In this document: piece by piece, positions 3,872-25,492 of the stretch
How positions within the stretch are numbered: the first letter of the stretch is position 1
How the letters are laid out: every line of letters begins with the position of its first letter
DNA from: Micrococcus porci
GTDB lineage: Bacteria > Actinomycetota > Actinomycetes > Actinomycetales > Micrococcaceae
DNA: 64,000 nucleotides
NCBI RefSeq assembly: GCF_020097155.1
Contig: NZ_CP083691.1
Location: 2,480,001-2,544,000, forward strand
Direction: 5' to 3'
Translations under genes and position numbers: made by a program
The notes under the pieces: model-generated
Told to the model about the DNA's origin: nothing
The model's database searches: none
Seen by the model: the letters and a program-made list of their open reading frames with translations, nothing else

Positions 3872-5518
3872 GTGCCCGCCTCCTCCCTGACCCGCCGTCC
3901 CGCGCACGCCCTCCCCGCGCCCGCCGACGACGCCGCCGCACACCCCTTCGGCGCGGCCGCCCTGCGCGCGCGGCTCGGCGTGCAGGCCGCGGTGCTCACC
4001 CGCTGGCACTGGATCGTGCCGCTGGCGGTCACGGTGCTGGCCGGCGTCATCCGGTTCACGAACCTGGCGTTCCCGGACAAGCTGATCTTCGACGAGACGT
4101 ACTACCCCAAGGACGCCTACTCGCTGATCCTCTCCGGCTACGAGCGCCGCTGGGCGCCGGACGTGGACGCCGCGTTCGCGCAGGGGACGGCGCAGCCGCT
4201 GGACGAGCCCGCCTACGTGGTGCACCCGCCGCTGGGGAAGTGGCTGATCGCGCTGGGCATGCTGGCGTTCGGCCCGGACAACGGGGTGGGCTGGCGGTTC
4301 AGCGCCGCCGTGGCGGGCACCCTCTCGGTGCTGCTGGTGACGCTGGTGGCGCAGCGCCTGTTCCGCTCCGTGTCCCTGGGCGCCCTGGCCGGGCTGCTGC
4401 TGGCGGTGGAGGGCCATCACATCGTGATGTCCCGGATCGGGCTGCTGGACATCTTCCTCAGCTTCTTCATGATCGCCGCGTTCGCGGCCCTGCTCGCGGA
4501 CCGGGACCACGGCCGCCGTCTGCTGGCCTCCCGCCTGGCGGAGCAGGTGGCCGCCCACGACGCCGGCACCCGCCGCGGCGACCCCCTCGCCTTCGGGCCC
4601 CGGCTGGGCTGGCGCCCCTGGCGCATCCTGGCCGGCGCCCTGCTCGGGGCGGGCTGCGCCGTGAAGCTCTCCGGGCTGGCCTTCATGGCGGTGTTCGGGA
4701 TCCTCACGGTGCTGTGGGACATGGAGGCCCGCCGGACGGCGGGGATCCGGCACTGGCTCCGGGCCGGCGTCGTGCGTGACGGGCTGCCGGCGTTCGCGGC
4801 GGTGGTGGGCGCGGGGCTGGCCGTGTGGCTGGCCTCCTGGACCGGCTGGTTCGCGAGCGAGGGCGGCTACTACCGCCGCTGGGCGCAGGACAACCCGCCG
4901 GAGGGCCCGCTGTCCGCGCTGCTGCCCGGCCCGCTGCGCTCGCTGATCCACTACCAGCTGGAGGCGTTCACCTTCCACGAGGGCCTCACCAGCCCCCACG
5001 ACTACGGGTCCAGCCCCTGGACGTGGCCCTTCATGGGCCGGCCGGTGAGCTACTTCTACGAGGGCGGCAAGCCCGGGGAGAACGGCTGCCCGAGCACGGC
5101 GGCGGACGCCTGCTCCTCCGCCATCACGGACATCGCCAACCCCTTCATCTGGTGGACGGGCCTGATCGCCGTCCTCGTGTGCCTGGCCGTGCTGGTCCGC
5201 CACCGGGACTGGCGCGCCGGCGCACTGCTGGGCGCCTACGTGGCCGGGCAGGTCGTGTGGTTCCGCTGGCCCGAGCGCACCATGTTCTTCTTCTACACGG
5301 TGGCCTACGAGCCCTTCCTGATCCTCATGATCGTGCTCGCCCTGTCGCTGCTGCTGCGCCGCGGGCACCGGCCCGGGCCACGCTGGGGGGCGGTGCTCGT
5401 GGCCGCCTACCTGCTGGTCGCCGTCGGCGTCTCCCTGTTCTTCCTGCCCGTGTGGATCGGTGAGCGGATCCCCTACCCGCAGTGGTCCTGGCGCATGTGG
5501 TTCTCCACCTGGATCTGA
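3872..5518 (+). CDS. pmt: Polyprenyl-phosphate-mannose--protein O-mannosyltransferase (PMT)
   Basis: 548 aa from GTG 3872. Transfers mannose from polyprenyl-phosphate-mannose to Ser/Thr of exported proteins on the outer face of the membrane. After a ~50-residue cytosolic tail come a first helix (IVPLAVTVLAGVIRF) and the GT39 acidic motif LIFDETYYPKDAYS, then many helices (for example LGALAGLLLAVEGHHIVMSR, then LLDIFLSFFMIAAFAALL). The C-terminal PMT membrane domain contains WPERTMFFFYTVAYEPF. I chose GTG 3872 because the -10 TAGCAT ends seven bases before it; the in-frame ATG at 3863 overlaps that box and would give 551 aa. Syntenic with mycobacterial Rv1002c. manA and manC elsewhere in the window make precursors of its donor. 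Confidence 0.92.
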   Translation: MPASSLTRRPAHALPAPADDAAAHPFGAAALRARLGVQAAVLTRWHWIVPLAVTVLAGVIRFTNLAFPDKLIFDETYYPKDAYSLILSGYERRWAPDVDAAFAQGTAQPLDEPAYVVHPPLGKWLIALGMLAFGPDNGVGWRFSAAVAGTLSVLLVTLVAQRLFRSVSLGALAGLLLAVEGHHIVMSRIGLLDIFLSFFMIAAFAALLADRDHGRRLLASRLAEQVAAHDAGTRRGDPLAFGPRLGWRPWRILAGALLGAGCAVKLSGLAFMAVFGILTVLWDMEARRTAGIRHWLRAGVVRDGLPAFAAVVGAGLAVWLASWTGWFASEGGYYRRWAQDNPPEGPLSALLPGPLRSLIHYQLEAFTFHEGLTSPHDYGSSPWTWPFMGRPVSYFYEGGKPGENGCPSTAADACSSAITDIANPFIWWTGLIAVLVCLAVLVRHRDWRAGALLGAYVAGQVVWFRWPERTMFFFYTVAYEPFLILMIVLALSLLLRRGHRPGPRWGAVLVAAYLLVAVGVSLFFLPVWIGERIPYPQWSWRMWFSTWI

Positions 5519-23241: not shown

Positions 23242-23745
23242 CTATGCCAGGAGCAGCACCCCCAGAGCCCCCGCCACCATCGCCGGCCCGAAGGGCAGGG
23301 CCGTATGGCGGTCCGCGCGTCGAGCCAGGACGAGCACCACGGCGACCACCCCGCCCAGGAGCACCGCCAGCACGGCGGCGGCCAGCACTGCGGCCAGCCC
23401 TGCGACGCCGCAGTACAGGCCCAGACCCGCGGCCAGCTTGACATCGCCGAGCCCCAGGCCGCCGCGCGTTAGCACGTGCAGGGCCAGCATCGCCAGGGCG
23501 TAGCCCAGCCCGCCCAGCAGGCACGAGGCCACCACGGACCACAGGCCGCCGAGCACCGCCCCGCCCCCCATGGCCACCACACCGCCCAGGGCCAGCCGTC
23601 CCGTCCACCGGTTCGGCAGCCGGTGCTCCCTCAGGTCCGTCCGCGCCAGGACCACGGAGCAGAGCAGGAACCACACCAGCCCCGCCGCCCACAGCATCGC
23701 GGTCAGCCGCTCCCCCGCCTCCCAGGCCCCCGTCCACCACGTCAT
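23242..23745 (-). CDS. A24 family prepilin peptidase (TadV/CpaA-like)
   Basis: 167 aa. Membrane aspartyl protease that would cut leader peptides of pilins. Both catalytic-aspartate motifs are present: LARTDLREHRLPN and GLGLGDVKLAAG (GxGD type). About six hydrophobic segments fill the rest. The N-terminal methyltransferase domain of classical PilD is absent, so it is of the short type. No pilin or tad/com gene is nearby. The start ATG 23745 follows TAGGGT by six bases. Confidence 0.88.
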   Translation of the reverse strand: MTWWTGAWEAGERLTAMLWAAGLVWFLLCSVVLARTDLREHRLPNRWTGRLALGGVVAMGGGAVLGGLWSVVASCLLGGLGYALAMLALHVLTRGGLGLGDVKLAAGLGLYCGVAGLAAVLAAAVLAVLLGGVVAVVLVLARRADRHTALPFGPAMVAGALGVLLLA

Positions 23746-23751
23746 GGCCCC

Positions 23752-23757
23752 ACCCTA
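23752..23757 (-). promoter_or_regulatory. -10 box of the prepilin peptidase gene (leaderless)
   Basis: TAGGGT on the minus strand, six bases from ATG 23745. Confidence 0.5.
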
Positions 23758-23831
23758 GGCGGCCCCGCACCCGCTCTCGCCGGCCGTCCACAGCCGGGTC
23801 TGACCAGGCTCTGCCGTGACACAGATGACAG

Positions 23832-23860
23832 TTGCAACCTGAAGCACCCGGGAGTAGAGT
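23832..23860 (+). promoter_or_regulatory. Promoter of the small RNA
   Basis: -35 TTGCAA (23832-23837), exactly 17 bases, -10 TAGAGT (23855-23860). The best consensus-type promoter in the window. No start codon sits at the expected start point near 23866. Confidence 0.75.
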
Positions 23861-23865
23861 CCTCG

Positions 23866-24022
23866 AAGTCGGATCCCCTCCGGGGGACGCCGATCCTGAG
23901 ACCCATGGCCTCGATCCCGTTTCAAGGGGCCATGCGGACGCGGGCTTCCTCGGTCCCCCATCCCCCCTCCGCGGGGCCGAGCACCCCCGCCGGGGGCCGC
24001 TGCGTGCAGCGGCCCCCCTTTT
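23866..24022 (+). ncRNA. Structured small RNA with C-rich loops, possibly the actinobacterial 6C RNA
   Basis: About 157 nt between a clear promoter and a clear intrinsic terminator in an otherwise gene-free gap between the prepilin peptidase and phoH. Stem I spans 23868-23894 (GUCGG/CCGAU outside, UCCCC/GGGGA inside). Stem II spans 23904-23934 (CAUGGCC/GGCCAUG). Stem III spans 23949-23981 (CUCGG and CCCC paired with GGGG and CCGAG), with a loop carrying a run of six C's. The six-C loop and the position of conserved-looking blocks recall the 6C sRNA of Streptomyces and mycobacteria (B11), whose C-rich loops pair with G-rich ribosome-binding sites. The existence of an sRNA is well supported; the 6C name is a judgement from memory of its description. 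Confidence 0.72.
23992..24022 (+). terminator. Intrinsic terminator of the small RNA
   Basis: A stem of about 12 bp (gggggccgctgc and its complement) followed by TTTT at 24019-24022. The only GC hairpin I found in the window with a proper T-run. It also separates the sRNA from convergent phoH. Confidence 0.85.
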
Positions 24023-24052
24023 CATGCCCGCCACTGCCCCGGGCGGCTCCTC

Positions 24053-25492
24053 TCAGTCCTCGCCCTCCTCCAGCAGCTCCGTCACCAGGGCGGCGATCGG
24101 CGAGCGCTCGGACCGCGTCAGCGTGACGTGGCCGAACAGCGGGTGCCCCTTGAGGGTCTCCACCACGGCCGCGATGCCGTCGTGCCGGCCCACGCGCAGG
24201 TTGTCCCGCTGGGCGACGTCGTGGGTGAGGACCACCTTGGAATCCCGGCCCATCCGGGAGAGCACCGTGAGCAGGACGTTCCGCTCGAGGGACTGCGCCT
24301 CGTCCACGATCACCCAGGAGTCGTGCAGGGACCGCCCGCGGATGTGCGTCAGCGGCAGCACCTCGAGCATCCCGCGGTCGACGACCTCGTCGATCACCGA
24401 CGGCGACACGATCGCGCTGAGGGTGTCGAACACCGCCTGCGCCCACGGGCCCATCTTCTCCCCCTCGGTGCCCGGCAGGTAGCCCAGGTCCTGGCCGCCC
24501 ACGGCGTACAGGGGACGGAACACCACCACCCTGCGGTGCTCCCGGCGCTCCATCACCGCCTCCAGGCCGGCGCACAGGGCCAGCGCCGACTTGCCCGTGC
24601 CGGCCCGTCCGCCCAGGGAGACGATGCCCACGCTCGGGTCCGTGAGCAGGTCGATGGCCAGCCGCTGGGCCGCCGAGCGGCCGTGCAGCCCGAACACGTC
24701 CGCGTCCCCCCGCACGAGGGTCGCGACGCCGCCCTCCCGCACCCGCGCCAGCCCGGCCGCCCGCGGCGAGGTGAGCGAGAGCCCCGTGTTCACGGGCAGG
24801 TCCACGGCCGTGGGGGCGGGCTCGCCCGGGACGGCGTCCACCCCGGAGCCGGCCACCTCGTCCAGGGGGATCCCGTGCAGGCCCATCCGGCCGTCGTCGT
24901 ACAGCGAGTCCAGGCGGTCCTCGTCCACACGGAGGGACACGGCCCCGCGCCAGCCGGAGTCCCGCACCAGCTCGTGCCGGTACTCGTCCGCGGCGAGCCC
25001 CATGGCGGCGGCCTTCACGCGCATCGGCAGGTCCTTGGACACGAGGGTCACGTCCCGGCCCTCGTCCGCGAGCGCCTTGGCCACCGCGAGGATCCGCGAG
25101 TCGTTGTCCGTGCCGCGGATGCCGAAGGGCAGCACGTCCGTGGAGACGTGGTTGAGCTCCACCCGCAGCGTGCCGCCCTGCGCGGTGAAGGGCACCGCGT
25201 CCTCCAGCGAGCCGTGGCGCACCCGCAGGTCCTCCAGGAGCCGCAGGGCGTGGCGGGCGGCGTGGCCGAGGTCGGGGTCCTGGCGCTTGCCCTCCAGCTC
25301 CGAGACGACGACGAGCGGCAGCACCACCTCGTGCTCCGCGAAGCGCACGAGGGCCCGCGGGTCGGAGAGGAGGACGGAGGTGTCCACCACGTAGGAGCGC
25401 CGCCCGTCCGACGCCGCCCCCTCCCGCACCTCCGCGCCCGTCTCGCCGGTCCCCCTGCCGTGCCGTCCGGTGCCGTCCGCCTGCAGCGTCAT
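24053..25492 (-). CDS. phoH2: PhoH2-type protein: PIN domain fused to PhoH ATPase
   Basis: 479 aa. PhoH2 proteins couple a PIN ribonuclease domain to a RecA-like PhoH ATPase and act as RNA helicase/RNases in mycobacteria. The PIN domain begins at about residue 33 ([15 protein letters not shown]) and continues through [13 protein letters not shown] and the acidic [10 protein letters not shown]. The PhoH domain has the Walker [33 protein letters not shown] and the Walker B-like [13 protein letters not shown]. The start ATG 25492 has a gaggagg ribosome-binding site. Corresponds to Rv1095. Confidence 0.92.

Follow-up and report, generated by a model that had tools for sequence, protein, structure and literature searches.

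A conserved candidate small RNA with a C-rich loop beside phoH in Micrococcus

Locus and predicted anatomy of the RNA

The gap between a prepilin peptidase gene and a PIN-PhoH gene of Micrococcus porci (positions 23746-24052 of the 64,000-nucleotide stretch analysed, here called the window) contains, at 23866-24022, what looks from its sequence like a real, conserved and structured small-RNA gene. The RNA is single-copy and strongly conserved in Micrococcus (group g1), and homologues much changed in sequence were found in two further genera of the family, g4, which we presume could be Citricoccus, and g2. Our favoured reading, to which we give a probability of roughly 0.55, is a small regulatory RNA of the Micrococcus branch that would be transcribed on its own, has no match in Rfam 15 and would pair with mRNAs through its loop in a 6C-like manner. 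The features of the locus are as follows.

23242..23745, minus strand: prepilin peptidase, divergent neighbour (PF01478)
23832..23837, plus strand: -35-like element TTGCAA (pattern scan of the window; TTGCnn was picked in 10 of the 11 Micrococcus homologues)
23855..23860, plus strand: -10-like element TAGAGT after a 17-nt spacer (pattern scan of the window, homologue leaders)
23866..24022, plus strand: predicted small RNA of about 157 nt, its start placed from the -10-like element
23868..23894, plus strand: P1, 5′ hairpin (fold; the sequence varies among species, the hairpin is predicted in Micrococcus and g4)
23902..23937, plus strand: P2 hairpin, stem CCAUGGCC...GGCCAUG and a loop with AUCCCGUUUC (fold, covariation)
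23940..23990, plus strand: P3, two-part stem bearing the C-rich loop, both stem parts covarying (fold, covariation)
23958..23972, plus strand: P3 loop CCAUCCCCCCUCCGC (C5-7-UCC kept in 19/19 aligned homologues)
23992..24022, plus strand: intrinsic terminator, 11-bp stem followed by CTTTT (terminator scan, fold)
24053..25492, minus strand: PIN-PhoH protein, convergent neighbour (PF02562, PF13638)

The original prediction had placed a promoter, three stem-loops and a terminator within 23832-24022. All of these were borne out, and by its layout the region reads as an RNA gene of its own, some 157 nt long; the fold, the terminator, the covariation and the conserved neighbourhood support the predicted gene. 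RNA polymerase would start near 23866 and stop at the hairpin 23992-24017.

The promoter had been called the best in the window. This held among sites of the form TTGnnn-(16-18)-TAnnnT, three of which were present and among which TTGCAA-17-TAGAGT ranked first, matching the consensus at 8 of 12 letters, but it failed in a stricter scan (9 of 12), which omitted this site and listed one other, at 4446; the ranking thus depends on the criterion. TTGCnn-17/18-TAnnnT was present in 9 of the 11 Micrococcus homologues, and in g4 the promoter-like pairs were TAGnnA-17-TATGCT (7/8) and TTGTCA-17-TATGCT (1/8), each of these being the top-scoring choice within 110 nt, taken without a control, doubtful for two homologues (L005 and L010) and misplaced for the one from g2 (L049). 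The g2 homologue has a visible -10-like hexamer, TAGACT, close to P2, which would leave no room for P1.

At the other end, 11 terminator-like matches were counted in the window. The hairpin 23992-24017, with 11 pairs and CTTTTC after it, exceeded all the others in length and, as predicted, was the only one with TTTT. Terminator-like matches numbered 3, 6, 2 and 0 in the separate stretches of the window, against shuffle means of 2.0, 2.0, 2.5 and 0.7, respectively.

Conservation in Micrococcus and related groups

A DNA search found the element in all 11 Micrococcus genomes. A second DNA match in the genome of the window (L012) lay inside coding frames and was attributed to chance. A covariance model built from 10 of the 11 Micrococcus genomes (R1) was searched across 245 genomes of the family and also matched eight g4 genomes (E 1e-6 to 1e-11). 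Seven weak R1 matches in six genomes outside g1 and g4 (L032-L038; E 0.006-0.09) were taken as chance, being terminator hairpins or gene ends by eye. The g2 homologue was seen on reading the gaps beyond phoH in 21 loci (L048-L068, one from a known g4 genome), and R1 scored it at 32.1 bits.

A second covariance model (R2), built from homologues of g1, g4 and g2, gave 20 clear matches in the 245 family genomes (11 in g1, eight in g4 and one in g2), and a 21st match (E 0.049) was considered a chance one. There was no convincing match in the other 225 family genomes. In a search of 297 genomes of the order, the genome of the window was the sole match at E<=0.01, with no convincing match in the other 296. 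Both the family-wide and the order-wide search used stricter filters, at which weak matches are lost.

Structure and covariation

The 157 nt at 23866-24022 were predicted to fold at -87.5 kcal/mol, compared with -73.1 +/- 3.8 kcal/mol for shuffled sequences (z -3.8; 0/200 as good). The leaders folded better than their own shuffle mean in 20/20 homologues, a count in which the g2 row, with its misplaced start, is to be ignored, leaving 19 rows. A hairpin in the position of P1 was predicted in every Micrococcus and g4 leader. By these predictions the RNA would fold into P1, P2, P3 and the terminator, with the conserved loop AUCCCCCCUCC presented on a firm stem.

Compensatory base changes in the stems of relatives, which the original prediction had proposed to look for, were found. 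In the alignment of 19 homologues (A6), 97.6% of cells pair and both sides had changed in 11 of the 35 pairs, against 5.1 +/- 1.0 in shuffles, none of 500 of which reached that number; structures slid along the alignment gave 1-4 such pairs. A6 was fitted to the g1 structure and so favours it, and a plain MAFFT alignment (A4) showed both sides changed in 5 of 32 pairs. Independently of A6, P2, P3 and the terminator appeared in the same order in 18/18 sequences folded singly. One homologue (L009) was left out of the alignments A3, A4 and A6; its core is the same as that of L008 by eye.

The same changes bear on whether the region might encode a small protein. An AUG in P2 opens a frame of at least 40 codons in the 16 homologues translated, and the first 10 residues look alike, a likeness that follows from the conservation of the P2 DNA. 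Beyond about 7-10 codons, however, the reading frame shifts from one species to another, and the sequence changes follow base pairing. A coding function was rejected on these grounds and is regarded as very improbable.

The C-rich loop and the unchanged stems

Six C's occupy 23962-23967, within the P3 loop (23958-23972), as predicted. The run is ordinary by itself, the window holding 17 runs of C6 and 16 of G6 or longer, but its conservation is beyond chance. The motif C5-7-UCC was preceded by AU in 18 of the 19 aligned homologues and by AA in one. Between the g1 and g4 consensus sequences the P3 loop was identical at 14/15 positions and the inner stem of P3 at only 11/18, indicating that the stem is held for its shape and the loop for its letters. 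The loop contains CCUCC beside the C run; CCUCC is the anti-Shine-Dalgarno sequence of 16S rRNA.

The P2 stem (23902-23937) and the terminator stem (23992-24017) were unchanged between the same two groups (20/20 and 22/22 positions). Judged from these consensus sequences, such identity exceeds what pairing alone should need, and the loop may consequently not be the sole active part.

Unchanged stems are also what a protein site would show, and the RNA might instead bind a protein such as RNA polymerase and be the missing 6S- or Ms1-type RNA of Micrococcus. One study reports that Micrococcus luteus has yielded no 6S or Ms1 RNA and expects a type still to be discovered there; the length of the predicted RNA is near that of a 6S RNA of about 160 nt, which the same study places among the shortest (PMC11077062). 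No Rfam 6S match was present in the window, however, where a tRNA was the sole match at gathering score, and few parts of the RNA are as conserved as the C-rich loop. 6S RNA has the shape of one long duplex with a central bubble, whereas four separate hairpins were predicted here. We consider a 6S or Ms1 type quite unlikely.

Relation to 6C RNA

In its broad design the RNA resembles 6C RNA (RF01066; B11 in mycobacteria). Both are actinobacterial small RNAs, or would be, with tandem stable hairpins and a run of C's in a loop, and for both a pairing with G-rich ribosome-binding sites is proposed. 6C has been described as two stem-loops, each typically with six C's (PMC4046766). Two six-C loops were absent from the Micrococcus RNA, in which C6 stands in P3 only and the P2 loop has CCC; g4 likewise has one C-rich loop. 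The g2 homologue shares C-runs in two loops with 6C: its P2 loop (CCUCCCCCAAUAGCG) and its P3 loop carry five C's each. Further differences lie in the loop sequence (CCCCCCUCC here, against mostly CCCCCAA or CCCCCGA in the 6C loops of the family), in a separate terminator hairpin without a C-rich loop and in the location beside phoH.

The original prediction had named the 6C family and proposed a search with its Rfam model. RF01066 gave no match in the window at its gathering score (47 bits), none in 23700-24200 even at E<=10, and none in the genome of the window (0/1). Across the family it matched, at E<=0.1, 33 of the 245 genomes; 13 of these, all in groups g6 and g11, scored above the cut-off. 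Weak matches in two genomes that have the RNA lay elsewhere than the RNA (G010, E 0.044; G068, E 0.043).

A 6C covariance model made from 12 Micrococcaceae 6C loci (R3) matched 22 of the 245 family genomes at E<=1e-4, with scores of 43-85 bits. With filters off, its score on the window was 10.8 bits, centred on the terminator hairpin, and on the g2 homologue 8.7 and 7.9 bits; conversely, R2 did not exceed 15.1 bits at the sites of 6C in 13 loci. Of the weaker R3 matches listed in Micrococcus and g4, ten (nine in g1, one in g4) were read; eight of them resemble ordinary terminators, the other two fall within coding-like frames, and none of the ten has two C-rich loops. Taken together, RF01066, R3 and the reading of the weak matches recognised no 6C in Micrococcus. 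By the tests made, with neither 6C model matching and with one C-rich loop only in Micrococcus, the RNA is not 6C, and the family name did not stand.

It could still be a 6C descendant, strongly diverged and relocated, left with a single C-rich loop in Micrococcus after the loss of the other and furnished with a separate terminator hairpin. The shared design points that way, as do the five C's in both loops of the g2 homologue, whose P2 loop resembles 6C loops UCCCCCAA of family members, and the occurrence of 6C itself at different places in different genera. None of the 22 genomes matched by R3 at E<=1e-4 is among the 20 that have the RNA, as descent would allow; this proves little, since chance would give an overlap of about 1.8 genomes and the pattern follows phylogeny. 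Against descent stand the scores of all three models, RF01066 finding nothing at E<=10, R3 remaining at 10.8 bits or less on the window and the g2 homologue, and R2 staying at 15.1 bits or less at the 6C places. We regard descent from 6C as improbable.

Some features of the 6C loci themselves were recorded. Neither phoH nor the prepilin peptidase gene was within the stretch examined in 20/20 Micrococcaceae 6C loci. The 6C locus varies by genus: by eye, one (L076, g11) lies beside genes resembling those for ribosomal proteins L1 and L10, and another (L071, g6) between LysR- and MarR-like genes. Loops were read in 18 of the twenty loci (L069 and L079 were left out), and in most of the 18, within L070-L088, the two hairpins matched by RF01066 are preceded on the 5′ side by a third one whose loop is C-rich (e.g. 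AUCCCCCCAAAU).

Other small RNAs are comparable by description rather than by sequence (PMC3765725). Streptomyces scr5583 and scr1434 are also actinobacterial and have a C-rich terminal loop. Staphylococcal small RNAs with C-rich loops, e.g. RNAIII, target mRNAs through the loop; their lineage is unrelated, and the analogy would be one of action only.

Relation to the neighbouring genes

The RNA core lies within 260 nt of the phoH end in 18 of the 20 genomes with the RNA, and the prepilin peptidase gene within 320 nt in 11/11 Micrococcus genomes. Such proximity would suit a local action, as an antisense or terminator element of either gene. The association is loosened, however, in several genomes. 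One genome (G001) has phoH about 1 kb from the RNA, and another genome (G010) keeps the RNA without phoH at the locus; there the RNA adjoins a rhomboid-like frame, and the sole PhoH match in the genome is a distant one. In g4 and g2 the prepilin peptidase gene is 860-1030 nt away in 8/9 genomes and was not found in the locus in 1/9. Other Micrococcaceae genera have phoH without the RNA. In addition, the T-run follows its hairpin on the plus strand, while both neighbours read on the minus strand. A local role is held to be quite unlikely.

At the G010 locus (L011) the RNA outlives its phoH neighbour, in an assembly of 240 contigs that is 91% complete. At another locus (L002, genome G003), the phoH beside the RNA matches as several pieces in different frames, which would mean a broken gene or assembly errors.

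Possible mode of action

Under the favoured reading, a small regulatory RNA acting through its loop, CCUCC beside the C run would pair with a limited set of mRNAs at their G-rich ribosome-binding sites and reduce translation, in the manner of the C-rich loops of 6C/B11 RNA. The original prediction had likewise proposed pairing with such sites. This is plausible by analogy. In a study of Mycobacterium abscessus, complementary ribosome-binding sites were enriched among the genes raised in the absence of B11, and a single C-rich loop of B11, no matter which, was enough to repress a reporter (PMC10470900); in M. marinum, a second report states that loop 3 of B11 matters (PMC12395582).

Target tests, by contrast, gave the proposal no support. 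A prediction with the six-C loop against the starts in the window, as originally suggested, showed no excess: before the starts of 38 crude gene models covering 65% of the window, complements of the loop were no commoner than for permuted loops. Complements of at least 5 nt preceded 10 genes, against a permuted mean of 10.8 (129 of 200 permutations gave as many), and complements of at least 6 nt preceded 2 genes, against 3.5 (172/200).

In the whole genome GGAGGGG occurred 53 times at 4-9 nt before an ATG, compared with 15 for the reversed pattern; 30 of the 53 sites were inspected, and only about five look like true starts. Among these five are an FtsW/RodA gene and a siderophore-interacting protein gene, both with 10-nt complements. 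FtsW/RodA was rejected as a conserved target, the 10-nt complement not being kept in the other 10 Micrococcus genomes; over the 11 FtsW/RodA leaders, pairing of the loop was no better than that of shuffled loops (118/300 as good). The full 11-nt complement with a start codon was found at two places in the 11 genomes, each in a different genome.

A more specific proposal is put forward tentatively, as one that we think possible but would not expect to hold. In the Micrococcus branch, the RNA may represent a new small-RNA family, formed or reshaped at the phoH locus, that takes the place of 6C, genera having either 6C or this RNA and never both. With its loop copying the CCUCC anti-Shine-Dalgarno sequence beside a C run, it would rival the ribosome at certain chosen GGAGG sites.

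Being single-copy and strongly conserved and having a defined loop, the RNA offers a direct way into small-RNA regulation in Micrococcus. If it acts like 6C without being 6C, then either the solution of a C-rich loop arose repeatedly, or 6C can relocate and change beyond recognition within a family. Our literature search found no paper joining Micrococcus and 6C RNA, and among the matches listed there was no trans-acting small RNA of Micrococcus and nothing on this locus.

One database record was noted in passing. Among the matches listed, a phoH protein 70% identical to that of the window comes from a public record (L110) that bears the title Vibrio cholerae strain 35D. It fits the Arthrobacter records around it in the list, and the record is probably contaminated or mislabelled.
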